Assembly (NCBI RefSeq): GCF_018304765.1
Contig: NZ_CP072642.1
Span: forward strand, 2,323,819-2,387,818
Length of the DNA stretch: 64,000 bases
DNA from: Chloracidobacterium sp. N
GTDB lineage: Bacteria; Acidobacteriota; Blastocatellia; Chloracidobacteriales; Chloracidobacteriaceae
Direction: 5' to 3'
Position numbers and translations under genes: made by a program. The notes under the pieces were generated by a model. That model worked only from the letters and a program-made list of their open reading frames with translations, was not told where the DNA came from and did not search any database. Positions 10,605-23,834 of the stretch are shown here, piece after piece. The number at the start of each line of letters is the position of its first letter. Within the stretch, counting starts at the first letter, position 1.

Positions 10605-11018
10605 TCACGTCAGAAGGTGAATGGATGCCCCGGACCAGACGCCGGTGAGGGTGTCTGCATCGCCGATAATCTGCATGTGCGTGGTGTCGCCGACGGTGTA
10701 CAGAGTCACATCCTCGATGGCGCCAATCGCCTGTGGCGGGGGCGTGAAGTGCCGGACCGTTGCCGCCGGCCCCTGCTCGCGCATGGCCGCCGCTTCCTCG
10801 CACAGCGCCCGGCGGGTGGCTTCCGGCAGGTCGAGTGCAGCAATGGCTTCTTCATCCTGCACAAGCGCCATGCTTCCGTCCGCATCCACACTCCACAGGT
10901 AGGGGATGTCGAGAAGGAAATGCAGGTGTTCAGGCTGCGCATAAACGCCTAGAATCTGGCAACCAAACACATGCTTGACGACGTGTTCCTGGTGTTTCGT
11001 AAGCTGTCGGACTTCCAT
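10605..11018 (-). CDS. Hypothetical protein, 137 aa
   Basis: A 137-residue soluble protein I do not recognise. It has no signal peptide or membrane helix. Phrases such as HFLLDIPYLWSVDADGSMAL and LPEATRRALCEEAAAMREQ suggest a small alpha/beta fold with one amphipathic helix. Coding is supported by normal codon use and a reasonable length on this strand. Its ATG (11018) is only 11 bases from the ATG of the oppositely oriented transglutaminase gene, so each promoter must lie in or near the other gene's start, or one start is misplaced. Function unknown. Confidence 0.6.
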   Translation of the reverse strand: MEVRQLTKHQEHVVKHVFGCQILGVYAQPEHLHFLLDIPYLWSVDADGSMALVQDEEAIAALDLPEATRRALCEEAAAMREQGPAATVRHFTPPPQAIGAIEDVTLYTVGDTTHMQIIGDADTLTGVWSGASIHLLT

Positions 11019-11029
11019 GATTGACGCCC

Positions 11030-13273
11030 ATGAACATCGAGCAGTTTTTCAAGGCGGCATCCTATGCCCTGGTTACGGGTGGCTTTTTGACACTGGCGCT
11101 CACCGGACGGGTGGATGTGGTGACGTGTATCCTCTACAGCCTGGCGCTCATCGCAAGCTGGTTTGCCGACCGTCCGGGGCTGCGGCTGCAAATCAGCGAA
11201 CGGGTTGCCAACTGGTGCGTTGTGGGATACGCGCCCTTTGCCTACCTTGATTTCCGGTATCTCAGCAGTTCGTGGATCACGGCGCTCATTCACTTCGTGC
11301 TGTTCGTCTCGATTTTCAAGCTCTTCCAGGTCAAGCGCGACCGCGACTGGGTGTTTCTCTACCTGCTGGCCGTGTTTGAAATGCTGCTTGCGGCTGGTCT
11401 CACCATTGATGCCCTGTTCCTGCTGCTGCTTACGGGTTTCACGCTGACCGGACTGGCGGCCCTTCAGGCATTTGAGGTGGTACGGACGGGCCGCAACCTC
11501 CGTCAGCCCCTGCGTACGGTGACGCTGTCGTATGACGGGCAACAGGCGCGGCAGGCCAGTCGTCCGGTACGCTACCTGCTGGTGATGACACTGGTCATGG
11601 CGGCGCTCATCGGGGCCTTGAGTGTCCCGACCTTCTTCCTGTTGCCGCGCTGGAACACGGGCCTGCTGTCCCAGACCTTCAGCGAAGACACGGCGATGAC
11701 CGGCTTTTCTGACCTTTCCATTGCGCTTGGCTCGGTGGGCAACATCAAAAGCGACGAGCGTACAGCCATGCGCGTCCGGGTTGAAAAGCCGCTGCCACCC
11801 TACCTTCACTGGCGCGGCATGGTCATGACGCAATTCGATGGCAGGGAATGGACGCGGCCGGAAGCCAACCGGCGCGTGGCCGTCAGGCAGCAGAATGGCG
11901 GCTACATCCTTGGTGAGCAGCAACAACGTGGTCAGGTAGTGGTGCAGACCGTGTATGTGGAACCGATGAGCACCAGCGCCCTGTTTCACTGTGGCCGACC
12001 GGTGGCGGTGTCCAATCTGCGCGGACTGGCACAGGATTCAACCGGCACGCTCTACCGGGCGGAATGCGGGACGCGCCTGAGCTACACCGTGCTGTCCCAC
12101 CTGGATGAAACACCGGTGGAGCAGTTGCGGCAGGACCCGCTCAAGTATGACGCCCAGACCCGCGCCACCTTCCTGCAACTGCCGGCGACGTTTGATGCGC
12201 GGGTGACGCAACTCGCCCGTGAGATCACCGCCAACGCCACCAATGGCTACGACCGGGCGCGCGCCATCGAGCAGCACCTCAGAACACGCTGTGCCTACAC
12301 GCTTGAGCTGCAACGAGGAAACGAGCTGGACCCCATCGTGGACTTCCTGTTCGAGACGCGCCGCGGCCACTGTGAGTATTTTGCTTCGGCGATGGCGCTG
12401 ATGTGCCGCTCGCTGGGACTGGCCGCGCGGCTGGCCGGGGGCTATCACCTTGGCGAGTACAATGACATCAACAACACTTACATCGTCCGGCAGGCAGATG
12501 CCCATGCCTGGGTCGAGGTGTATTTTCCACAGACGGAAACCTGGGTCGAATTCGATCCCACACCGGGGGTAGCCCCCGCCCCCCCCACGGCGGCAGCCGA
12601 GTGGCTCGCTTCGGCGAGGCGCTACATCGAGGCTTTGCGCATGTTCTACATTGACTATGTCATTGCCTACGATGCCCAGCGCCAACGCGGGCTGGCGCAG
12701 GATGTGGGTCGCGCAGCCGCGCGGTATCAGACATCGGCTGAGGTTTACATCTACCGCTACCGCGAGCAACTCAGAATGTGGACCATCTCCCAAGTGATAT
12801 GGATGTACTCGGCCGTGACGGGTACGGAACTGTTCTATCACCTCACAGTGTTGCTGGTGCTGGCGGGCGCCATGTTGCTGACGCTGGCCGGCTACCTGCT
12901 CTGGCGGCGCATCCGGCGCCAACCACGACTTCTCTTTGAACGGCGGTGGTTGAGCTGGCTTGCCCCCCTGTTCCGCTGGACGCTGCGGCAGGACGAACGC
13001 CAGTCGGCTGTCCTGTTTTACGATGAGATGGCGGCGCTGCTGAGCCGCGCCGGACATCGCCGCGCGCCACATCAAACGCCGCTGGAATTTGCTTCGGCAA
13101 CGGGCTTCGAGGAAGTCCTCACCATCACGCGGGCCTACAACCAGGCGCGCTATGGCGAACGGCCCGACCTGGACAGCCGGCAGGTTGACCGGGCACTCCA
13201 AGGGCTGCGCCAGCGTTTGCGGCAGCGCCGGTCAGGGTTCTGGCGCACGCTCTGGCGGCCGGGGCGCAGCTAG
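11030..13273 (+). CDS. TgpA-type membrane transglutaminase-like protein
   Basis: A 747-residue membrane protein. Residues 1-210 hold about six helices (DUF3488/TgpA N-domain). An extracytoplasmic region ends in a transglutaminase core with the Cys of RRGHCEYFASAMALMCRS, the His of ADAHAWVEVYF and the Asp of WVEFDPTPG. A further helix near residues 605-630 precedes a DUF4129-like cytoplasmic tail (DERQSAVLFYDEMAALL). TgpA-like proteins are thought to act on envelope proteins or peptides and are often found beside MoxR/DUF58 genes, which are not seen here. I chose ATG 11030; a TTG at 11021 is possible. Neither has a clear ribosome site. Confidence 0.88.
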   Translation: MNIEQFFKAASYALVTGGFLTLALTGRVDVVTCILYSLALIASWFADRPGLRLQISERVANWCVVGYAPFAYLDFRYLSSSWITALIHFVLFVSIFKLFQVKRDRDWVFLYLLAVFEMLLAAGLTIDALFLLLLTGFTLTGLAALQAFEVVRTGRNLRQPLRTVTLSYDGQQARQASRPVRYLLVMTLVMAALIGALSVPTFFLLPRWNTGLLSQTFSEDTAMTGFSDLSIALGSVGNIKSDERTAMRVRVEKPLPPYLHWRGMVMTQFDGREWTRPEANRRVAVRQQNGGYILGEQQQRGQVVVQTVYVEPMSTSALFHCGRPVAVSNLRGLAQDSTGTLYRAECGTRLSYTVLSHLDETPVEQLRQDPLKYDAQTRATFLQLPATFDARVTQLAREITANATNGYDRARAIEQHLRTRCAYTLELQRGNELDPIVDFLFETRRGHCEYFASAMALMCRSLGLAARLAGGYHLGEYNDINNTYIVRQADAHAWVEVYFPQTETWVEFDPTPGVAPAPPTAAAEWLASARRYIEALRMFYIDYVIAYDAQRQRGLAQDVGRAAARYQTSAEVYIYRYREQLRMWTISQVIWMYSAVTGTELFYHLTVLLVLAGAMLLTLAGYLLWRRIRRQPRLLFERRWLSWLAPLFRWTLRQDERQSAVLFYDEMAALLSRAGHRRAPHQTPLEFASATGFEEVLTITRAYNQARYGERPDLDSRQVDRALQGLRQRLRQRRSGFWRTLWRPGRS

Positions 13274-13284
13274 ACGCAGCCTGT

Positions 13285-15174
13285 TCAGGCAGGGTGGGCG
13301 ACCCGCTTCCCGCTTCCAAGGTGAAGACTGAGAATGGCCAGCGCCGCCGGCGTCACGCCCGGAATCCGTGCGGCCTGTCCCAGGGTTGCCGGACGGATAC
13401 GCGCAAACTTGTCGGCCATTTCACGCGACAGCCCCGGCAACTGCGAAAACTCAAAATTTGCCGGAATGGCCACATCGGCGGCTTTCGACAGCTTCCGGGC
13501 CGTGGCCTCGTGGTGACGCACGTAACCCTCATACTTCAGGTTATTCACCGCCACCCCCAGCTCGGACTCGTCGAAATCCGTCACTCCGGCCCGGCGCAGG
13601 GCAGCCGCCAGATGTTCCGCCGTGACTTCCGGGCGCCGTGCCAGGGTGGACAAACGTTGCTTTTCCCGAACGACGATCCCGGTCTCGGCGGCAAGGGCGT
13701 CGGCTTCCCAGGAGTCCGGGCGGATGGAACAGGCTTCAAGCAGCGTGTGGCAGGTCTGGATGCGTGCCTGCCGCTGCTGGAAACGCTGGTAGTCGTCTTC
13801 ACTGACCAGGCCGACGGCGTGGCCGAGTGGCGTCAGGCGCTGGTCGCTGTTGTCAGTCCGCAGCAGAAGCCGCACTTCGGAGCGGGAAGTAAACATCCGG
13901 TAGGGTTCATCCACGCCTTGGGTTGTCAGGTCGTCCACGAGGACGCCAATGTAGCTGCTGGCGCGGTCGAGCACCACTGGCGGGAGACCCTTGGCCAGAC
14001 GGGCAGCATTGATGCCAGCAACCAGTCCCTGGCAGCCGGCTTCCTCATAACCCGTCGTGCCGTTGATCTGCCCGGCATGGAACAGTCCCCGGATGCGCTT
14101 GGTTTCCAAAGTCGGCTTGAGTTCCGTGGGGTCGACCATGTCGTATTCGATGGCATAGCCCGGACGGATGAGTTGCGCCTGTTCGAGACCGGGAATCGTG
14201 CGCACGAGGCGTTCCTGCACCTCAATCGGGAGGCTCGTCGAAATCCCGTTGACATACACCTCGTGGGTTTCAAAGCCTTCGGGTTCGAGAAACACCTGGT
14301 GGCGCGGTTTGTCGGGAAACTTCACAACCTTGTCCTCAATGGACGGACAGTAGCGGGGCCCGATGGACTGAATCTGCCCGCTGTACATGGGTGACTTGTC
14401 CAGGTTCTCACGAATCACCCGGTGGGTTTCTTCATTGGTATAGGTGATGTAGCAGGACAGTTGGCGGCGAGTGATGGCTTTCGTCCCGAAGGAAAAGGGG
14501 GTGGGATCGGCATCGCCCGGCTGCTCCTCACACTTTGACCAGTCAATGGTTTTGGCATGGACGCGCGGCGGCGTGCCGGTTTTGAGCCGTCCCACGCGAA
14601 ATCCGAGGCGGCGGAAGCTTTCGGCGAGCAGCAGCGAAGGCAGTTCCCCGGCGCGGCCGGCCTGGTAGGTGCGCGTACCGATGTGAATGAGACCGTTGAG
14701 GAACGTCCCGGTACAGATGACCACGGCTGACGCGCCGAGCCGCCGGCCGTCCCACATCTCGACGCCGATGATGCGTTCCTGTTCGACCATCAAATCAATG
14801 ACCTCGCCCTGCCGCAGGTGGAGGTTTTCGACGGTTTCAAGGAAGCGCCGCATTTCGGTCCGGTACAGTGCGCGGTCGGCCTGGGCGCGTGGCGACTGAA
14901 CGGCTGGCCCACGGCTTCGGTTGAGCATCCGAAACTGGATTCCGGTCCGGTCAATGATCCTGCCCATCAGCCCGCCCACAGCGTCCATTTCGCGTACCAG
15001 GTGTCCCTTGGCAATGCCGCCGATGGCGGGGTTGCAGGACATCTGGGCAATGAGGTCGAGGTTGAGCGTGATGAGCGCCGTCTGGCAGCCGAGCTTGGCG
15101 GCGGCGTGGGCGGCCTCGCATCCGGCATGTCCGGCGCCGATGACAATGACATCGAAAACTTCGTTGAACGGCAT
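13285..15174 (-). CDS. mnmG: tRNA uridine 5-carboxymethylaminomethyl modification enzyme MnmG/GidA
   Basis: A 629-residue FAD protein, the normal MnmG length. With MnmE it modifies the wobble uridine of several tRNAs. Motifs include [20 protein letters not shown] (FAD-binding), [41 protein letters not shown] and [20 protein letters not shown], plus the C-terminal [10 protein letters not shown] and [15 protein letters not shown]. The start at 15174 gives the conserved N-terminus [13 protein letters not shown]; the upstream open frame crosses palindromic repeats. mnmE is not in this window. Confidence 0.97.
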
Positions 15175-15308
15175 AATCCTGGGGCGCGGGCATCCTGCCC
15201 GCCGGAACAACATGGGAGTGCGGGCAGCCTGCCCGCAGGAAACCCGCATGAAAACAGAGGGGAGTGTACCGAGGGGCCAACCGGACTGACAACCACGCCC
15301 GGCGCGTC
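15175..15308. repeat. Spacer with two gcgggc palindromes
   Basis: Between mnmG and the nucleotidyltransferase gene lie two copies of the family B palindrome: gcgggcatcctgcccgc at 15186-15202 and gcgggcagcctgcccgc at 15220-15236. The first is identical to the copy at 8321-8337, which shows that the element is dispersed. No gene is seen. Confidence 0.88.
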
Positions 15309-16427
15309 TCACGCCTCTCCGGGGGCCAGTTGCCGTCGCTGGAGGGTGCGCAGCACGGTCAGCCCAAGAAACCGCAGGCGGCTCGGCCATCGGTCGTGAA
15401 GGCTTGACTGGTAGAGGTGTGCCGCCAGAAAAAAGCCGAGCTTGGCGCCCAGCGAGCGACGCGGACGGTTGTAACGGCGCATGGCCTGGTCAAAAAGGCG
15501 CTGGTTGAAGTGTAGCCACCGGCGGCGGCCGGGGGTCAGGCATGCGAGCAGGGGTGTCTCCACGCGCAATCGCTGGCGCAGCAACTCGCAGGCGAAAATG
15601 ACGGCGGTCGTCACCTGCCAGTCGTGCATGCGCCGACACAGGGTTTCCCAATCAAAAGCGGGATGCCGGTGCAGGAGCAGTTTCAGGTCAAACAACCAGG
15701 CCAGACGGGCAAAACTGTGGGCCGCCGCATGGACGCACAGAAAGAGAAATTCGTCTTCCGGGGCCAGCACCTGGATGAGCCGTCCACGCTGCGTTCGATA
15801 CGGCACGGCACGCGCCAGGAAATCCTCGGCCTGAAGCGTGACGCCGAAGCGCCGGAACAGGTGGAAGTGCAGCTCCAGCGGCGGCGAAATGTTGTCGAGA
15901 GCGATGTTGTGATCGCCGGCGAGCGCCTTTTCCAGCGTGGCCGCATCAGTCTGGTAGCCCAGGGCCGCCACGGCTGCCAGCGCCGGATGAACCTGCTGGT
16001 ACGGCACCAGCACATCCAGGTCACTGGATGACCGGAAACCATCGGCGCCGTACAGCCGCTCCCCAAGCAGTGGGCCTTTGAGCGGAACGGCCGCAATGCC
16101 AGCCGACTGCAAGGCATCCAGAATCCGGTCCATCTGGGCTGTGAGCTGGAGTGTCCAGGCCGCCTTGTGTGCCTGAAGCAACCGAACGTGTTCCCGGATG
16201 ACATCGGGCAGCAGCACACCAGTTCGGGTGAGCCGTCGAAACAGATAGTCTTCCAGCCCGTGCTGCTGGGCGCTCGTCAACAGCGCCGCCCAGTCCGTGA
16301 CTTCAGCCGCCAGATCGGACATGGCCGCTTCCTGCTCCGGCAAACAGGCCATGAGGCATTCAAGCTGGCGTTCCGCGACAACGCCGTTGTCCCGATGCGG
16401 CATGATGTCCGGGTAGCGCGTCGGCAT
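15309..16427 (-). CDS. Nucleotidyltransferase-family protein (PF14907-like) of the RiPP cluster
   Basis: A 372-residue protein resembling the uncharacterised nucleotidyltransferase family found beside PqqD and lasso-type genes. It has [13 protein letters not shown] followed by [13 protein letters not shown] (the GS-x-SDxD-type metal site, near residues 119-147), then a long helical C-terminal part ([21 protein letters not shown]). In known lasso clusters such enzymes act with a HPr-kinase homologue to decorate a phosphorylated C-terminus. It is last in a minus-strand cluster, 47 bases after pqqD. The ATG at 16427 is not certain; an internal Met nine residues later is possible. Confidence 0.75.
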
Positions 16428-16474: not shown

Positions 16475-16738
16475 TTAGACCCGCTCGATCAGCGCCGCCG
16501 CTTCGAGTTGGGCAAGCAACCGCCGGGTACTCTCCGCAAGGTATGCTTCGTCAGCATCGTATTCCGCGGCCAGGGCGGCGACAATCTCCGCTTCGGCTTT
16601 GCCCTGGGTGAGGTGGTGCCAGATGGCGGCCCCTGTACTGTTGAGCGTGAAATAGCGTTTTGTGTCGAGGTGCAGGATCACCAGAGCATCTTCCACTTCG
16701 GTGGAGACCACGGAGGGATGCGGCCGAAAAGTCGTCAT
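16475..16738 (-). CDS. PqqD-family peptide-recognition protein (RRE)
   Basis: An 87-residue PqqD-like protein. The readable pattern VVSTEVEDALVILHLDTKRYF, LNSTGAAIWHHLTQGK and IVAALAAEYD fits the PqqD winged-helix fold that binds the leader of a ribosomal peptide and presents it to modifying enzymes. Its ATG overlaps the stop of the radical SAM gene (16735-16738), so the two are translationally coupled, as for PqqD/PqqE pairs. The other pqq genes are absent, so the partner peptide is more likely the 51-aa product at 18852-19007 than PqqA. Confidence 0.9.
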   Translation of the reverse strand: MTTFRPHPSVVSTEVEDALVILHLDTKRYFTLNSTGAAIWHHLTQGKAEAEIVAALAAEYDADEAYLAESTRRLLAQLEAAALIERV

Positions 16739-17781
16739 ACCGACACACTCCAGGGCAACGGTTTGGAGTCCGCGGCTCGCCTCCGCCCAAGCTGCACGAG
16801 CGCCAACCCCTGCCAGGTTGTCTTGTCAAACGTGGCAATGCAAAAGTGACACGGAAACTCAGCCGTAGCGTCTCCGGCAGCCAGCGCCGCGTTGCGACGT
16901 TCACGCTGAAAGCGTGCCAGACGGTGAACCTGCTCACAAGCCTCCCGGAAAGAAGTCGTGCGCATATCGGCGATGACATCGGCTTCGCCCACCGCATGGC
17001 GGAAGTCTGACAGGTTGCAGCACAGCGTCAACCGCCCACGACAATCGAGATTGACCGTCTCTCCGGCAAGGGACACGCAGGGGGTGCCGGGAACCGGCAT
17101 CGAATGACCGGCGGCAAACTGCACGGGCATCCTGAGTATGGCATTCACGGCCATGGCTTCCTGCTCGGCCGCCCGCCGTTCATCCGGCGTCAGGGATAGC
17201 GTCCGGTCATACTCCTCTGAAGTCGGCAGCATGTGCATGAACTGCACGACATCGGCCCCAAGGCGTGCGCCCAGAACGGCCATGGCTTCAATGCTCCCGA
17301 CGCTGCGTTTGGTCACAACCATGTTGATGCCAAAGGGAAAGCCATGAAACCGGCACAGGGCTATCGCAGCCATGAGTTTGCGAAACGATCCCTTGCCCCG
17401 GACGGCATCGTGGGCGGCTTCCGTCGGCCCGTCCAGGCTGAAAAAAATCCGGTACAGTGCCGCTTTCGTTTCGCACAGCACTGGAACAGCCTTTGGAAAG
17501 TGCCACCCGTTAGTGACGAACGAGTAAGCCAACCCAAGCGCGGCCGTGCGGCGCAGAACATCCTGAAAACGCGGATGGAGCAGCACTTCCCCGCCCGTGT
17601 AGGTCACGGCCGTCACACCGTAATCCCGCGCCTGGCGCAGCACCTCATGCAACAGATCGAAATCCAGATGCTGTGTCTCAGCGACGCGCAGGCAGTAGTC
17701 ACAATCAAGGTTGCACAGGTTGGTCAACCCGACCGTGAGGCGTTTGACCGGCAGGACATCCGAAAGGGTAGCTTCAGGCAT
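16735..17781 (-). CDS. Radical SAM/SPASM peptide-modifying enzyme
   Basis: A 348-residue protein with the radical SAM cluster motif TNLCNLDCDYC (Cys23, 27, 30), the GGE motif TYTGGEVLLHP and a C-terminal SPASM-like cysteine set (TPCVSLAG, DCRGRLTLCCN, FPCHFCIATFD) for extra iron-sulfur clusters. Together with the overlapping pqqD this is typical of RiPP maturases of the PqqE/AlbA/sactisynthase group. The substrate peptide nearby has no cysteine, so thioether formation is unlikely; C-C, C-O or epimerisation chemistry would fit better (inference). I chose ATG 17781 over an upstream TTG (17802). It overlaps the end of the HPrK-like gene by eight bases. Confidence 0.9.
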   Translation of the reverse strand: MPEATLSDVLPVKRLTVGLTNLCNLDCDYCLRVAETQHLDFDLLHEVLRQARDYGVTAVTYTGGEVLLHPRFQDVLRRTAALGLAYSFVTNGWHFPKAVPVLCETKAALYRIFFSLDGPTEAAHDAVRGKGSFRKLMAAIALCRFHGFPFGINMVVTKRSVGSIEAMAVLGARLGADVVQFMHMLPTSEEYDRTLSLTPDERRAAEQEAMAVNAILRMPVQFAAGHSMPVPGTPCVSLAGETVNLDCRGRLTLCCNLSDFRHAVGEADVIADMRTTSFREACEQVHRLARFQRERRNAALAAGDATAEFPCHFCIATFDKTTWQGLALVQLGRRRAADSKPLPWSVSV

Positions 17782-18763
17782 GGTTGCAATGGAGCCGAAC
17801 AAGGTCAGTGGCCGTCAAATAGGCAGCCAGTCGGGAGGGTTCATACCACACATCGCGTCCGGCCAGCAGCGTGAAGCTATAGCACGACTCAGCCAGCTTA
17901 CGGTATGTCGCCAGGTGGGCCGCGGCGGTTTCGCGGTCGAGTGCCAGCCATGGGCTGTTCACCATCAACTGGGACAGGGCATCGGTTGCCGCCAGCGGCA
18001 AGACCTGTGTCTCTTCAGCCTCCCGGAGCTGACAGAAAAACAGAAATGCCGGTTGGACGGACAGCACCTGCCGCTGCGGCCAGAGCATGGCCGGATTGAC
18101 AACCCATTTCCCGGCGCGTTGCCAGCGCCGTTCGGCGTGGGGCTGCAAAGCCGGGAAACGGTCGAGCGTCGCACCTGTCACGGAAAACAATATCCGCCCG
18201 GCGCGCAGATGAACTGCGGCGGCGGCTCCGGGCGGCGGCACCTGCCTGACAAGCAGGGCATCGTCAGAAACGTAATCCCAGCCGGCTTCAATCAGCCCCA
18301 AAACGGCACTCGTTTTGCCACTCCCCGGTGGACCGGTGAACACGTACCCTTTCCCGGCCTAGACACAGGCTCCACCGTGCAGCTCAAACCAGCCAAGCCG
18401 CCGGAGCAGAAACAACAGGACGAGTCGCAGATATGAAAAGACTTCGTACGACGCCCTGGCGTCCGCCACCAATGGAACCTGTATCGGGATGATGCGCCGG
18501 CGAAAAACATCCAGCACAACCTGCCAGTCCCCGTAGGCTATGCTCAGCAGGCTGCCCTGGCGGTGAACCGTCAGTCCTTTCCACACCAGCCATAGCATCA
18601 ACTGGCGGACGCCCCCGGCTGGTCGCTCATCCGTCAGGATGATGTCCGCCGTCCCGGAAGCTGTCTCCGGCAGGCCAAGGTAGCGGCAGGTTTCAATGAC
18701 GAATTGCAGCGACGGGGACACCTGCCCCAGGACACCAAATGAAGGTCCCCGGCTTGCGCTCAT
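17774..18763 (-). pseudogene. HPr-kinase-like P-loop protein interrupted by one in-frame TAG
   Basis: Two open stretches in one frame, separated by a single amber codon at 18359-18361. Upstream part: 134 residues starting MSASRGPSFGVL and ending WFELHGGACV. Downstream part begins AGKGYVFTGPPGSGKTSAV. In HPr-kinase-like proteins of RiPP clusters, an LHAAAV-type strand is followed directly by the Walker A loop, exactly as the two halves would read if joined; the combined protein would be about 329 residues. A GTG at 18343 could start the second half, but no ribosome site precedes it and the fold would lack its N-domain. A recent nonsense mutation, a sequencing error or amber readthrough are all possible. 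The family phosphorylates serine, including the lasso peptide C-terminus. Confidence 0.85.
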
Positions 18764-18792
18764 TCAGTAAACCTGGAGAGCCGGACGGTCTG

Positions 18793-18828
18793 GAGAGAAA
18801 ACAAAGGGCTGGTCCCAACAACCAGCCC
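18793..18828 (-). terminator. Intrinsic terminator after the precursor-peptide gene
   Basis: On the minus strand an 8-base-pair stem (GGGCTGGT / ACCAGCCC, 18806-18813 with 18821-18828) and a 7-base loop are followed by TTTGTTTTCTC. It sits 23 bases after the stop of the 51-aa gene and before the HPrK-like gene. This would give much more precursor mRNA than enzyme mRNA, a usual arrangement for RiPP precursors. Confidence 0.82.
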
Positions 18829-18851
18829 GGTCATAACCTCAAGAGGCAAAC

Positions 18852-19007
18852 TTATGGGGCAAGGAAGCTGGCACTGAAAGCTTCCAGCACACGCAGCCCC
18901 TGGATTTGCTTTTCCAGGTGATCGAAGGCCTTGAGTTCGGGTTCAACAAAGACTTTTTTGGCCGGCATCGAATCGGTTGGAACCGTTTTGGTTTCAAGTG
19001 TGTTCAT
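18852..19007 (-). CDS. Putative RiPP precursor peptide, 51 aa
   Basis: A short gene read from the sequence, with a strong ribosome site (AGGAG, eight bases before ATG 19007) and a terminator right after it. The 51-residue product starts MNTLETKTVPTDSMPAKK and has VFVEPELKAF at 19-28 and a hydrophobic tail, GLRVLEAFSASFLAP, at 37-51. The F-x2-P-x-L pattern (Phe20, Pro23, Leu25) matches the Y-x2-P-x-L leader motif bound by RRE proteins in lasso-peptide precursors. A possible core starts at Gly37, with Glu42 as the only acidic residue in it. There is no Cys or Thr in the tail; Ser45 and Ser47 could be kinase targets. It lies between the B2-type protease and the HPrK-like gene. Precursor identity is inferred from context and motif. 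Confidence 0.78.
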   Translation of the reverse strand: MNTLETKTVPTDSMPAKKVFVEPELKAFDHLEKQIQGLRVLEAFSASFLAP

Positions 19008-19028
19008 CGTATGACTCCTGAAAATCTC

Positions 19029-19049
19029 GGGTTAGGGGGGTTAGGGGGG
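19029..19049 (+). repeat. TTAGGGGGG tandem, G-quadruplex-capable tract
   Basis: Three G-runs (3, 6 and 6 bases) separated by TTA lie in the 42-base gap between the B2 gene's stop and the precursor's ribosome site. The G-rich strand is the template strand for the peptide gene. It may form a quadruplex that affects transcription or processing, or it may be a slippage product. Confidence 0.7.
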
Positions 19050-19511
19050 TTACGTGGTCAACCCGGGCATCCGGTGACGAAACATCACGCGGAAGCACTC
19101 ACCCAGGTTGTGCGTCTCAAGCAATGGCTGTCCATTGACTTCAATCCAGCAATGAAGTGCCGGACGCCCAAGGCTGTCCAGGGAGCCAGCACCCAATACC
19201 AATGAAACATCTGTCCGCTGTTGACGACGTAGCATAGCATAAATCACCAGCGAGCGCAGCAGACATTCACCCATACCAAAACGCGGCAGACGACGTACGA
19301 TGGCGCGCGCCGTCTGCGCTATTGCCTCCGGGGGTACGGACCCCGCCGAAGCACGAACCGGCAGCCGATCCAGGTGGTCAAGCACTTCCGGCAAGGGCTT
19401 CCATCGTACCCGAAGCCACAGCCAACCGGACCACAGCAGACAGTCCACAATCCTGCCCAAAGGATGCTGCCGCCACACGAAAAAGGAAGGCTTTCCGACG
19501 TCAACCCACAA
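19050..19511 (-). CDS. Lasso-peptide-B2-type transglutaminase-like protease
   Basis: A 153-residue protein with the B2 (transglutaminase-like) signature: an N-terminal helix (VDCLLWSGWLWLRVRWKPL), the catalytic Cys83 in FGMGECLLRSLVIYAMLRR, and His120 in ALHCWIEVNGQPLLETH. B2 proteins cut the leader from lasso precursors, guided by an RRE partner. The usual third catalytic residue is an Asp shortly after the His; here Asn126/Glu124 occupy that zone, so the triad may be altered. The only start at the conserved N-terminus is TTG (19511), with a weak ribosome site. It is directly upstream of the precursor gene, and the PqqD protein in the same cluster can supply the RRE. Confidence 0.83.
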   Translation of the reverse strand: MWVDVGKPSFFVWRQHPLGRIVDCLLWSGWLWLRVRWKPLPEVLDHLDRLPVRASAGSVPPEAIAQTARAIVRRLPRFGMGECLLRSLVIYAMLRRQQRTDVSLVLGAGSLDSLGRPALHCWIEVNGQPLLETHNLGECFRVMFRHRMPGLTT

Positions 19512-19546
19512 GATGCAGCAACCGCTTGACTTAACGCAGATGAAAG

Positions 19547-19602
19547 GGCTTGCCTGTAGCCCTCACCCTACAAACCTCAACCATCAGGTGCAAGCCTTTT
19601 TT
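19547..19602. other. Candidate hairpin between ATP-grasp and B2 genes
   Basis: The arms GGCTTGCCTG (19547-19556) and CAGGTGCAAGCC (19585-19596) can pair with a bulge around a 28-base loop. The plus strand then reads TTTTTT. No plus-strand gene lies upstream, so a terminator role is doubtful; it could be an RNA structure in the minus-strand leader of the B2 gene. Confidence 0.35.
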
Positions 19603-19657
19603 CGGGCGCATGCGGGTTTCAGGACAGTCTGCCTCCCGATTCCCTCCTGGCTGGCCA

Positions 19658-20875
19658 TTACTCCGGCCGCTCCAGGGGCGGCACGACGGCGCAGTAATCC
19701 CGCTCAAAACGCGCCGTGTAGTCACGCAGCAGTTCCGTCACCCGCTCGTGGCGGTCAGAGCGCACAACCAGTCCAACGTGATACCGTTTCTTGACCCGGT
19801 ACACAATTTCCGGGTCGGTAAACGAGGACGTGTCCGGGTACTCCTGACGTGCCAGGGAAAGGGCGACACCACCGTATTCCTGGCGCGTCGGCGGCAGGAC
19901 ATAGGGAACCTCCCCACGCCCCAGCTCAATTTTCGCCCACTCCGCCCAGATGTTGACTCCGCTGGCGGCCTCAAGCGCCTCGGCAATGTAGGCGCCGCCC
20001 ACCCGACTGGCAATTTCCAGAAAATAAAACTCGCCGTCTTCGGCACTCTTGATGAACTCGGCATGCGTCGCACCACGCCGCATCCGCAAGCCGGTAATGA
20101 GCTTGCGGTTGATGTCCAGCAGGGCAGCCCGCTCCGGGCTGTCGTAGGGCAGGGTTTGGGTGGTGAAAACCCCACCATCGTGCGCCACGCTCATCGGTGG
20201 CCGCCCATACCGGTTCACCCCGGCAAAGACGACCTCTCCGTTTTCGACCAGTGAATCCACGTGGTACACATCCCCGGCAACAAATCGCTCCAGGACATAG
20301 TTGCTCGACCGCTCGCTGAGACGGTCGCGGGCATCCAGATAGTCAATCGTGCGCCAGACCTGCTCGCTGTCGTAGAGCTTCTTGATGCCAATGGCCGAGA
20401 CATCCGAGCGCGGTTTCATCACCCAGGGCGGCGGGACGCGCTTCATGTAGTCTTCCAGGTCCTGGTAGTTGAGCACGTGAACGAAGTCCGGCACCCGCAC
20501 GCCAGCCTGCTGTGCTTCGATGCGCATGGCAAGTTTGTCGCGGAAGTGCCGCGCCGTCGTGCTGCCCATGCCCGGCAGGCGCAGGTGTTCCCGGATGAGC
20601 GCTGCCGTCAACACGTCGAGTTCCTCCAGCGCCACGACCGTGTGCAGCTTGCGGGGACGTGCCAACTGCGCCACGGTGTAGATGAACAACTCCGGCGTGG
20701 CATCATTCGGCAGAGGGATCAACTCGTCGAGACTTTCAAACGGCCAGTCCTCGTGGCGAAACTTCTCTTTCGTCACCAGGACGACCCGGCATCCCTGGCG
20801 CTTGACTTCGCGCAGGAATTCGACGCCTTTGAAATAACTCGCCAAACAGACAACAGTTCGCTCGTGACTCGTCAT
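19658..20875 (-). CDS. ATP-grasp carboxylate-amine/thiol ligase-like protein
   Basis: A 405-residue ATP-grasp protein. The N-domain starts RTVVCLASYFKGVEFLRE. The central ATP-binding blocks are PPPWVMKPRSDVSAIGIKK, NYVLERFVAGDVYHVDSLV and the metal site GEFYFLEIASRVGGAYIAE. The family joins a carboxylate to an amine or thiol through an acyl-phosphate; the substrate is unknown. It is 146 bases upstream of, and co-oriented with, the B2 protease, so it may be the amide-forming enzyme of the RiPP cluster, which lacks a lasso cyclase. It could equally be an unrelated amino-acid ligase. No RiPP-specific domain is visible in it. Confidence 0.85.
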   Translation of the reverse strand: MTSHERTVVCLASYFKGVEFLREVKRQGCRVVLVTKEKFRHEDWPFESLDELIPLPNDATPELFIYTVAQLARPRKLHTVVALEELDVLTAALIREHLRLPGMGSTTARHFRDKLAMRIEAQQAGVRVPDFVHVLNYQDLEDYMKRVPPPWVMKPRSDVSAIGIKKLYDSEQVWRTIDYLDARDRLSERSSNYVLERFVAGDVYHVDSLVENGEVVFAGVNRYGRPPMSVAHDGGVFTTQTLPYDSPERAALLDINRKLITGLRMRRGATHAEFIKSAEDGEFYFLEIASRVGGAYIAEALEAASGVNIWAEWAKIELGRGEVPYVLPPTRQEYGGVALSLARQEYPDTSSFTDPEIVYRVKKRYHVGLVVRSDRHERVTELLRDYTARFERDYCAVVPPLERPE

Positions 20876-21011
20876 GGGTTAGGCCCTGACCCCTTCTGAA
20901 GCTTGGGAAAGCAGCTTGAAATGGCAGCGTGTGACCGCAGGATAACCCGCCAACCCGGCCGCAGGCAATCGCCAACCTGATGCACTGTCCGGTGCAGACA
21001 CCGGTCGGTTG

Positions 21012-21959
21012 CTATGGGTTCTCCGGGGGATAGGGTTCAACCCGGAGCGTGCCGCGCGCTGTCATCAGTTGCAGTTCGGCGCCTCCGACCCCAAACCGCC
21101 CACGGGTGCGCAGCCCAAAGGGGCTGTCCGGTGGAATCTCCGCATCACGGTTGATGGGATAGCGAATGTCCAGCGGTGTACTGGCTGCCAGAGCAACATC
21201 AGCCGCAAAACCACGTGGCACGCTCAACACAATGTCCCCCACCCCTACCTGCAAATCCAACCCAGAACCGCGCCAGCTTCGTCCATTGAGTTCGACTCGC
21301 ACCGTGCCCGTCGCCAGCCTTCCGACGACCGTTCCGGCTACGCCGCTCAGCACAACCCGTCCGCGCTGCACGGTAAACACAATGCCGCCGTAGATGTCAG
21401 CCAACGACAGATCGCCGTCAAAAACGGCGATTTCCAGGTCCGTGTATTCCGGGACGACGACCTTGTAATCCATGCGGTAGGGCAGGCGCAGCAGCGGACT
21501 GGCCAGCCCTTCGGAGACCGCGCGGCGCTCCTTGCGGGACAGGTTTTTGACAGCCGGACCCAGGGACATGAGGTGCAAACGGACATCGCGGGTGTCAATC
21601 TGAAAGCCAATCCGTTCGGCCAGAGCGGCCAACTCGGCGGATGATGCGCCTTCCACGCGAATCGTCGCCTGAACCACGAGTTCCGCCCGCTTGCTGCCGG
21701 TAATCGTCAGACTGCCCTGCGGCGGCAGGGTGATTTTGAGCGCCCGGCCATACTCGAAGCGCATCTTCTGCTCGCGGACATATTCCTGAAAGAGACGCCC
21801 GTCGTCAGTTTTTCCTTCAGCCTTGAGCGTGGCAGTGGCCGGCGGCACGGTTGGCGACGGCGGCACTTGTTGCGCCAGTGCGCCTGTTTCGGGCCAAAGA
21901 AGCCAGACCAGACCAGCGCCGACCAGCCACAGCCGGCAGACCTTCCCGCCCGGCCTCAT
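21012..21959 (-). CDS. Secreted DUF4097-like putative adhesin
   Basis: A 315-residue protein with an N-terminal signal ([16 protein letters not shown], cut near GALAQQ). The rest is beta-rich with repeating turns ([53 protein letters not shown]), as in DUF4097 beta-helix/adhesin-like proteins. Its ATG overlaps the carA stop (21956-21959), an odd but clear coupling. Function is unknown; the family appears in envelope and stress operons. Confidence 0.78.
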
Positions 21960-23077
21960 GCGGCCACCTCGGCCGGACGACTGGGCAACAGCGCCGTAAA
22001 CGCCTCGAACAGGTACGCCGCATCGTGCGGTCCCGGCGCAGCCTCCGGGTGGTACTGCACACAGAACACCGGCAGGTGGCGATGGCGGAAACCTTCGAGC
22101 GTACCGTCGTTGAGATTGATATGGGTCACTTCCAGTTCCTCCGGCAGACTTTCCGGGTCAACCGCAAAGCCGTGATTCTGCGAGGTGATTTCAACTTTGC
22201 CGGTCGTCAGGTTCTTGACCGGATGGTTGGCCCCACGATGCCCATACTTGAGTTTGAAGGTTCTGCCGCCAAACGCCAGCGCCAGCACCTGGTGTCCGAG
22301 GCAAATGCCGAAGGTGGGCAGGCGTTCCGCCAACAGGCGTACCTCGCGGGCAATATCGGCGAGTGGCTCCGGGTCACCAGGCCCGTTCGAGAGAAATACG
22401 CCATCCGGCTGCAGGCGCAACACCTCTTCGGACGTGGTGGTTGCCGGCACAACCGTGATGCGGCAGCCCAGCGCCGCAAGATGGCGCAGGATGTTGAACT
22501 TGACGCCGAAATCATACGCGACGACATGCCACCGTCGTCGTTGGTACTCCGTGGAGTCTTCAGCGGCAGCCAGCGGCCACGTGTAGGGTGCGGTGCAGGT
22601 CACGGTTTTTGCCAGAGCTGCCCCAACCATACCCGGCGCACCGGCCGCTTTGGCCACCAGGCGGGAGGCCTCGCGCTCAACCGTGGAGATGACGCCGCGC
22701 ATCGCCCCCCGCTCGCGGATGTGCTGCACCAGCGCCCGCGTGTCAATGCCCTCGATGCCGACAATCCCATGCCGCTTCAGGTAATCGCCCAGCGACTCCG
22801 TCGCCCGCCAGTTACTGACCACCGACGACAGTTCCCGCACGATGAAACCGGCCACGAAGGGTTGCCGTGACTCCACATCTTCGGGGTTGACACCGTAGTT
22901 GCCAATGTGCGGACAGGTCATCGTCACCAACTGTCCGGCGTAGGAAGGGTCGGTGAGCACTTCCTGGTAGCCCGTCATCGCCGTGTTGAACACGACTTCA
23001 CCCGTTGTCTCACCGGCGGCGCCGATGCTTTTCCCGTAGAACAGGCGCCCGTCTTCGAGCGCGAGGATGGCTTCCAC
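21956..23077 (-). CDS. carA: Carbamoyl-phosphate synthase small (glutaminase) subunit
   Basis: A 373-residue enzyme that releases ammonia from glutamine for carbamoyl phosphate, which feeds arginine and pyrimidine synthesis. It has the N-domain [36 protein letters not shown], the class I amidotransferase nucleophile in [17 protein letters not shown], and the catalytic His/Glu in [15 protein letters not shown]. The start is GTG at 23077, one base after the upstream stop. It belongs to a tight minus-strand run with hisD and DUF374. carB is not in the window. Confidence 0.97.
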
Positions 23078-23078
23078 G

Positions 23079-23834
23079 TCAATCCGTCTCCACGTTTGAG
23101 GCTGTTTCCGCCGCAGCGGTTGGGGATGAGTCTAGCACGTGCCGGTCAGAGGGCAGCGCGCCTGCCCTGCGTTGTGAGGACCTGCGTTGTGAGGGATGTT
23201 CTGTTTCCCACCGGTGCAGCAGGGTGTCCAGCTCCGCCTGCAACCGGGCCGTTGCGGCGGCAATGTCTTCCGCCGTCGCGCCCCGCCGCACCCAAATCGG
23301 TTGCCCGTAAAACACATGCCCGACCGTGAAGGGCTTGGGAACCCGGAAGGCATCCCAGGTGTTCAGCGTCCAGTGGTGTTCTGTCACGATACAGACCGGC
23401 TGGATGGGCGCGCCGCTCAAGCTGGCCAGCATCGCCGCCCCGTCTTTGGCGCGGTAGCGCGGCCCTTTGGGACCGTCAATGGTGAAGGCCGCATCGGCTC
23501 CCTGCCGAATGGCTTTGACCATGGCTTTGAGCGCCGTCACGCTGCCCCGCGTCGCCGATCCCCGCGCCGCCCCAAAGCCGAAACGCCGGATGACCTCGGC
23601 AATGATGTCCCCATCCCGGCTCTGTGAGGTCATCACCACAATGCCACGTCGCTGAAAAAACAGCGTCGCGGCCAGAATCTGGTTGTGCCAGAAGGTGTAG
23701 ATGATGGGTGTCGTCGGAGGCAGATGGCCGTGCAGCGGGTCGGGCAGGTCGCGCAGGTTGGACGTATCCAGGCGTATCGTCCACCCCAGAATCCGCAGGA
23801 CAAGCGTTGCCAGTCCGGCCCACCACCGTGTCAT
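23079..23834 (-). CDS. DUF374 lysophospholipid-acyltransferase-like protein
   Basis: A 251-residue protein of the DUF374 group, related to lipid A lauroyl/myristoyl-type and glycerol-phosphate acyltransferases. Conserved blocks are [17 protein letters not shown] (the HxxxxE/H-like site), [45 protein letters not shown] and GAPIQPVCI. It probably acylates an envelope lipid at the inner membrane. Its ATG overlaps the hisD stop (ATGA, 23831-23834). The C-terminal tail after residue 215 is low complexity and includes a duplicated SQRR coming from a 15-base tandem repeat. Confidence 0.88.

Follow-up and report, generated by a model that had tools for sequence, protein, structure and literature searches.

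A conserved 51-residue peptide precursor in Chloracidobacterium probably feeds a lasso-derived RiPP pathway without a macrolactam cyclase

The window analysed here, a stretch of 64,000 nucleotides from Chloracidobacterium sp. N, carries a six-gene operon on its minus strand (Table 1). In minus-strand order, the genes encode a B2-type leader peptidase, a short precursor peptide, an HprK-like kinase, a radical SAM protein, a discrete RRE and an NTP_transf_5 nucleotidyltransferase-like protein, and the operon is flanked by a conserved ATP-grasp gene and by a gene that by eye resembles gidA/mnmG. The precursor ORF had been predicted from the letters of the sequence, and re-inspection bore out its 51 codons, its start, its AGGAG site (seven bases before the ATG) and its residue numbering. 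The ATP-grasp neighbour (19658-20875) was considered as a further member of the cluster and rejected, since a 99% identical copy is present in a genus genome (G001) that is without the cluster.

Table 1. Features of the operon, in minus-strand order, with the evidence for each.
Feature	Coordinates	Strand	Evidence
B2-type leader peptidase (lasso B2, transglutaminase-like)	19050..19511	-	NF033537 46.9 bits (cut-off 33); PF13471 41.4 bits (cut-off 26)
Precursor peptide, 51 aa	18852..19007	-	Eight homologues; purifying selection on residues 17-51
Predicted leader, residues 1-36, ending I35-Q36	18900..19007	-	Bsf-like spacing to Phe-17/Pro-14; inferred
Candidate RRE-binding motif Phe20-Val-Glu-Pro23-Glu-Leu25	18933..18950	-	Phe, Pro and Leu invariant in 9/9; anchor Phe in 34/34 of the wider family
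Predicted core GLRVLEAFSASFLAP, residues 37-51	18855..18899	-	QIQG, E42 and F44 invariant in 9/9; cleavage site inferred
Stem-loop with T-rich tail, attenuator/terminator-like, GGGCTGGTTGTTGGGACCAGCCC + TTTGTTTT	18806..18828	-	Terminator scan; minimum-energy folds
HprK-like kinase, N-terminal piece, catalytic-type His (FELHGGACV)	18359..18763	-	tblastn co-linear with intact kinases; codon alignment
HprK-like kinase, C-terminal piece, P-loop GPPGSGKT and SDD	17774..18343	-	TIGR04352 weak, 22.2 bits (below cut-off 200); motif check
Radical SAM protein, CX3CX2C, C-X13-G-X4-C and CX2C (presumed twitch-like auxiliary site)	16735..17802	-	PF04055 70.1 bits; invariant cysteines; model
Discrete RRE (PqqD/B1-like), Ser70 at the lasso-RRE Asp position	16475..16738	-	PF05402 68.2 bits; profile; residue column
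NTP_transf_5 nucleotidyltransferase-like protein (presumed PsmN/LppN kind)	15309..16427	-	PF14907 148.7 bits; invariant K117, D136 and D138

A search of relatives found eight homologues of the precursor in Chloracidobacterium and sister genera. The gene is present in six of the seven genus genomes (the window's own included), in the sister genus G007 and, in two copies, in G008. In the resulting alignment (A1, nine sequences with that of the window), M1, K17, K18, F20, E22, P23, L25, F28, D29, E32, Q34, I35, Q36, G37, E42 and F44 are invariant, so that the Phe20-x2-Pro23-x-Leu25 motif of the original prediction is found unchanged in all nine. The serines had also been expected to be conserved, which held in part: residue 47 is Ser in eight of the nine sequences and Thr in the other, but residue 45 is Thr in seven, Ile in one and Ser in the window only. 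Across ten pairs drawn from five genus genomes, NG86 estimates for residues 17-51 gave a dN of 0.01-0.10 and, in the eight pairs for which it was computable, a dS of 0.56-3.2. Codons 1-16 are free to vary, with 0-4 silent and 7-12 replacement codons per pair in the same five genomes. This conservation and purifying selection rule out a chance ORF, and on such comparative evidence the 51-codon gene is confirmed as a real, conserved peptide precursor. Scans of the precursor against NCBIfam and Pfam gave zero matches. The second copy in G008 stands alone on a short contig (L025:1433-1582), and its predicted core is identical to that of the first.

The entire operon is co-linear in the same six genus genomes (the other five being G002, G003, G004, G005 and G006), and its order is likewise kept in G007. 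In G008, the B2 gene and the precursor lie at a contig end, the contig stopping just past the precursor, and no radical SAM match at E ≤ 1e-20 was found in this genome, which is 90% complete and consists of 1090 contigs. Searches of G009, from the same family, and of G001, the seventh genus genome, found neither the precursor nor the radical SAM protein. Window positions 11000-15370 and 19653-23780 align to stretches of G001 that lie 116 bases apart; because both flanks align at this distance and a tail of NTP_transf_5 is left, the operon genes were lost there as a unit. Left behind at this site (L092:8691-8882) are 15 residues from the C-terminal end of the NTP_transf_5 protein. The reading frame of the precursor is thus kept among close relatives, the exception in G001 being the removal of a whole block rather than the loss of a frame, and homologues were found near RRE and B2 genes in other genomes; on both points the original prediction came through.

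A wider family of such cassettes was collected by scanning contigs with the radical SAM alignment, which yielded 38 loci. Thirty of these (L051-L080) are closely related; Candidatus Brocadia pituitae contributes one and Acidobacteriota the other 29. Within these 30, the kinase was matched at E < 1e-5 in 28, the RRE in 27, NTP_transf_5 in 25 and B2 in 19. A number of the missing genes are explained by contigs that stop early, as in several of the 11 loci without a B2 match. Wherever both genes were found (28 loci), the radical SAM gene adjoins the kinase. Each of the 27 loci that extend upstream of the kinase has a short ORF with the leader motif in that stretch, 25 having the strict motif and two (L075 and L078) a looser one. 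Most of these ORFs overlap the kinase or stop no more than ~40 bases short of its start, and three are 247-301 bases away. Among 5081 short ORFs in 37 loci, the strict motif occurs in 39, of which 30 are the kinase-upstream precursors. Loci L051-L054 and L078 repeat genomes G003, G002, G004, G007 and G409 and are not independent of the genome-based counts. In eight loci (L081-L088), matched at E 3e-12 or worse, the radical SAM proteins were judged unrelated and the loci removed, and L049 and L050, relatives of the radical SAM protein with no kinase or RRE match, were excluded from the cassette counts. In Pyrinomonadaceae-type loci, the B2 match sits on the opposite strand. A pair of putative membrane proteins also lies near the RRE in loci of this type (L058:10274-11655 and L047:4752-6226), with no Pfam match above cut-off for the L058 pair.

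Within a sample of 396 genomes drawn evenly from the phylum, seven had a radical SAM match at E ≤ 1e-40, two of them (G022 and G026) with no kinase or RRE match. Judged from these matches, the cassette family is scattered over Acidobacteriota and is not common. A profile of the precursor found G000, G005 and G007 among the 396 genomes, and five more matches (E 0.015-0.04) were taken as chance. This profile is not sensitive, since it missed G015, where precursors were later found beside the kinase; G015 was also the one real case among nine weaker precursor matches (E 0.19-1) in the first search of relatives. Its locus (L047) has two precursors flanking the kinase, radical SAM and RRE genes. 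A search of plasmids with the radical SAM protein gave no match.

Leader positions were numbered by setting the motif anchor as -17. Among the 34 distinct precursors counted, the anchor is Phe in all 34, the search motif having permitted Tyr or Trp as well. Pro at -14 and a hydrophobic residue at -12 are also found in 34 of 34, both being built into the search motif; the invariance of Pro -14 in particular is in part a product of selecting precursors by a Pro-containing motif. Position -2, which was not part of the motif, is Thr in 23, Ile in 10 and Gln in one, counts that include close kin, and because the Pyrinomonadaceae precursors are close kin the Thr count does not stand for 23 independent cases. 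In one study (PMC10368454), Thr at -2 is described as the usual lasso rule, and the Bsf lasso leader as having Tyr -17, Pro -14, Leu -12 and Ile -2. The window leader has its Phe, Pro, Leu and Ile at the same four positions. From this shared spacing, cleavage is predicted between Q36 and G37, which would release GLRVLEAFSASFLAP and lends backing to Gly37 as the proposed start of the core. That the leader is bound by an RRE in the lasso style, as originally suggested, likewise seems to be borne out by the comparison, both in the leader spacing and in the position of homologues beside RRE and B2 genes.

The predicted cores are 11-15 residues long in 33 of the 34 precursors and diverge strongly among lineages, as seen in a Pyrinomonadaceae example (FFQAVTSGATN) and in Brocadia (QSNGFFSAFVP). 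The Brocadia precursor (L077:6780-6971) has two consecutive F-x2-P-x-L motifs, the second of which yields Thr at -2 and was used to predict its core. The version in Vicinamibacteria (L078:6710-6979, equal to L048:6203-6472) has Gln at -2, and its leader is followed by a Gly-rich tail of 52 residues.

In a lasso peptide, the ring is closed from core residue 1 to an Asp or Glu at position 7-9. The original prediction held that the spacing from Gly37 to Glu42 is unsuited to such a ring, and Glu was indeed confirmed at core position 6 (position 5 in G007). The window contains no PF00733 match, the three matches of its own genome all lying outside it. Three Chloracidobacterium cyclases were used to build a lasso-C profile, which may miss distant cyclases; it gave no match in the window or in 38 cassette loci (some of these one place fetched twice), with L091 as the positive control. 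The whole Candidatus Brocadia pituitae genome also has no PF00733 (Asn-synthase-family) match though the full cassette is present; since PF00733 genes occur somewhere in the other 13 of the 14 genomes searched, this is the sole genome-wide cyclase negative. A lasso ring is therefore very unlikely in Brocadia. Three points led to the rejection of a classical lasso: no cyclase was found with the cassette, the ring spacing does not suit, and the Brocadia genome yielded no cyclase match at all. The comparison thus agrees with the original expectation that the modification is probably of another kind. One of the three PF00733 matches of the window's own genome belongs to a separate, true lasso cluster (L091, C1 1174000-1188000, at ~1.18 Mb), with two precursors, an RRE, a B2, a cyclase and a weak HprK-like match; read by eye, both precursors have Tyr at -17, Thr at -2 and Asp at core position 9. 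Adjoining PF00733 and PF13471 matches are found in five other genus genomes (G001, G003, G004, G005 and G006).

A profile comparison puts the operon's RRE closest to TbiB1 (5v1u/5v1v, E 1.2e-19) and TfuB1 (6jx3, E 1.5e-12), both of them lasso RREs. In the LPP study, the leader Tyr is described as held by an Asp both in LPP (LppB D70) and in an actinobacterial lasso complex, D70 standing four residues ahead of the pocket residue F74 (PMC13381572). By the same spacing, the Trp-binding PbaB1 would have Q79 at the equivalent position. Of 31 family RREs, two are cut by contig ends; in the 29 that cover this column, it holds Ser in 26 and Asn, Ala and Thr in one each, whereas Asp is found in five of five lasso RREs (three from Chloracidobacterium genomes, plus TbiB1 and TfuB1). 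A Phe anchor fits with a Ser in the pocket, since Phe offers no hydroxyl to hold, and a matched switch from Tyr/Asp to Phe/Ser may insulate this pathway from the true lasso cluster of the same genome. The co-occurrence of Phe and Ser may go back to one ancestral event. The RRE tree has the lasso RREs to one side of a branch with weak support (48/55) and gives no means of demonstrating repeated origins of the switch; as few of its branches are supported, it decides little. The Vicinamibacteria locus L078 has Thr in this column and, after the RRE, a 442-aa ORF that is cupin-like by eye.

The radical SAM protein has invariant cysteine sites at C242-X13-G256-X4-C261 and C318-X2-C321 (ORF numbering), a pattern that we take to be a twitch-like auxiliary site. 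Its model (pLDDT 84.7) is closest to SkfB, BlsE and SuiB, and SkfB and SuiB are peptide-modifying enzymes. The NTP_transf_5 model (pLDDT 86.2) gave weak matches to ANT(2'')-Ia, MenT1 and FKRP, with nothing at E 0.001 or better in the fold search, and K117, D136 and D138 are invariant. PsmN, a nucleotidyltransferase-like protein, is described as adding a hexose to phosphoserine in pseudomycoidin (PMC9266682), and in the LPP study deletion of lppN made no change in its test (PMC13381572).

The kinase was identified from weak profile matches and from the His, P-loop and DD motif described for lasso kinases (PMC9266682, PMC10368454), and its frame is open in relatives. The operon proteins do not reach the HPr-rel-A cut-offs (TIGR04352 for the kinase, 22.2 of 200 bits; TIGR04353 for the PqqD-like protein, 27.8 of 35 bits), and the best TIGR04352 score among the kinases scanned at other loci is 52.8 of 200 bits. 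His, GK[ST] and DD are kept in 31 kinase copies from relatives, 26 by the strict pattern and five, which are fragments, by eye. An in-frame TAG (18359-18361) interrupts the gene in the window strain only, six codons past the catalytic-type His and before the P-loop. Four relatives have CAA, CGG, TAC or ACA as the aligned codon, and in G005 the protein has His at this position. Because the kinase is interrupted, the full pathway may not run in this strain. A GTG and a purine-rich stretch follow the TAG, from which translation of the P-loop half could restart.

Sequence comparison places the cassette nearest to two known kinds, the LPPs and the phosphorylated lassos, and it stands apart by having B2 in place of the SpI of LPPs and an added radical SAM protein. 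LPPs share with it a discrete RRE, an HprK-like kinase, an NTP transferase, an aromatic-xxP leader motif and the absence of a macrolactam cyclase, and they too occur in genomes that also make lassos (PMC13381572). The LPP gene set of HprK-like kinase, RRE and NTP transferase without a cyclase is found here, with the kinase interrupted in the window strain. By the same account, LPPs have an SpI peptidase where the cassette has B2, a Tyr anchor where it has Phe, and an MsbA-like gene that is absent from this operon, and they are placed in Bacillota, whereas the cassette, with its twitch-like radical SAM protein, is found in Acidobacteriota and Brocadia. No SpI-like leader peptidase was found among the eight proteins scanned at the locus, the operon's peptidase being B2. 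The phosphorylated lassos paeninodin, pseudomycoidin and Bsf (PMC9266682, PMC10368454) share the RRE (B1), B2 and an H-P-loop-DD kinase; pseudomycoidin and Bsf add an NTP transferase as here, and Bsf the same -17/-14/-12/-2 leader spacing. They differ from the cassette in that the latter is without cyclase C, has a core of unsuitable ring spacing and has a radical SAM protein. For the lasso set of RRE (B1), B2 and a leader motif with Thr or Ile at -2, the picture is mixed: B2 is over its cut-off, the RRE is closest to B1 structures and the leader geometry and position -2 fit, but the Phe anchor falls outside [YW]xxPx[LIVFA]. Since neither SpI in the operon nor a cyclase was found, the cassette was placed within neither LPPs nor lassos.

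Two more distant likenesses are of note. SynChlorMet cassettes, compared by their NCBIfam models and names, bring together a kinase-like ScmC, a PqqD-like ScmD and radical SAM proteins; the matches are far under the curated cut-offs (ScmF 79 of 400 and ScmD 16 of 100 bits in the window, ScmD 22 of 100 and ScmC 18 of 125 bits in L058), and B2 and NTP_transf_5 set the present cassette apart. PQQ biosynthesis shares a PqqD-fold RRE with a radical SAM partner (PqqD and PqqE), but its precursor is different, it is here that kinase, B2 and NTP transferase are found, and the scores are 63 of 381 bits for PqqE and 21 of 46 bits for PqqD. No description of the cassette was found in a non-exhaustive search of open PubMed Central papers.

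Taken together, we estimate with a probability of about 75% that the precursor gives rise to a RiPP through a pathway of lasso origin in which the macrolactam cyclase was lost or never present. The biochemistry of the parts is described as established in LPP, Bsf and pseudomycoidin (PMC13381572, PMC10368454, PMC9266682). By analogy with homologous solved complexes, the RRE would clasp the leader through Phe -17, Pro -14 and Leu -12. The kinase would then phosphorylate a core Ser or Thr, most likely residue 47, a step that the TAG probably prevents in this strain, and the twitch-type radical SAM enzyme would make one further change to the core. By likeness to PsmN, the NTP_transf_5 protein may add a nucleotidyl or sugar cap to the phosphate, and B2 would cleave after Q36, with Ile at -2, releasing an unthreaded peptide of ~15 residues. 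Together, the leader Phe and Ser70 of the RRE would prevent crosstalk between the precursor and the genome's own lasso cluster with its Tyr/Asp pair.

Against this cyclase-free pathway, one may ask whether the macrolactam synthetase of that lasso cluster cyclises the core in trans into a classical lasso. The cluster does have a B2, an RRE and a cyclase, and the leader geometry of the operon's precursor is lasso-like; yet the cluster's own precursors combine Tyr -17 and Thr -2 with Asp at core position 9 rather than Glu at 6 (5 in G007), the RRE pocket residue is not alike in both pathways and Brocadia carries the whole cassette without a PF00733 match, which together make cyclisation in trans barely credible. 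A strict membership of the LPPs, in which the kinase alone would act on the peptide and the radical SAM gene would serve another substrate, is in line with the RRE, kinase and NTP transferase that form the LPP core and with the missing cyclase. Given a B2 rather than an SpI peptidase in the operon, Phe rather than Tyr as anchor, and a radical SAM gene that is never separated from the kinase in the 28 loci, we nonetheless judge it quite improbable.

A peptide matured into an intracellular cofactor or signal, as PqqA is into PQQ by PqqD and PqqE, rather than into a secreted natural product, also seems unlikely. PqqD with a radical SAM protein is the plan of PQQ and mycofactocin, no transporter gene is present among the operon's scanned proteins, and the core is strongly conserved inside the genus, unlike many antibiotics. 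Set against these points, the cores differ strongly among lineages, the operon is wholly gone in the close relative G001, and we know of no cofactor set composed of a kinase, NTP_transf_5 and B2. A more serious possibility, though still short of probable, is that the locus is decaying in the window strain, the kinase having been stopped by the TAG and the precursor heading for loss as in G001. The position of the stop between His and P-loop and the block loss in G001 both point that way, but the other five operon genes are open, purifying selection acts on the precursor throughout the genus, the TAG is possibly a single-base assembly error, and maturation could proceed without the kinase.

Returning to the cyclase-free pathway, we tentatively suggest, at slightly less than even odds, that the cassettes define a distinct RiPP class reaching from Acidobacteriota to Planctomycetota, which would combine a cyclase-free B1/B2 chassis with a twitch radical SAM enzyme, a polyphosphorylating kinase, an NTP transferase and Phe/Ser insulation, and whose product would carry both a radical SAM change and a capped phosphate. 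No description of these two modifications on one peptide was found in the papers searched, and if the radical SAM enzyme works on a phosphorylated core, both the order and the chemistry would be new. Genome mining by lasso cyclase would overlook such cassettes, and to our knowledge few peptides have been characterised from Acidobacteriota. Phe/Ser would be a third anchor and pocket pair beside Tyr/Asp and, by spacing, Trp/Gln, and such pairs bear on how co-resident RRE pathways separate their precursors. As one Chloracidobacterium genome carries both pathways, the Phe/Ser pair is directly testable.

The stem-loop between precursor and kinase had been read as a dedicated terminator, which is partly supported: a hairpin and a T-rich tail are there, but the excess of terminator-like sites is not significant on its own, as a simple scan of 18600-19800 gave three against 1.4 ± 1.1 in shuffles, and the hairpin is less distinct in G003 and G006, with a gap of only 22 nt in G004. 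Attenuator is the better name for it. By the same minimum-energy folds, made without a shuffle control, a strong hairpin also lies in the precursor-kinase gap of G005, G002 and G008 (G008a and G008b).
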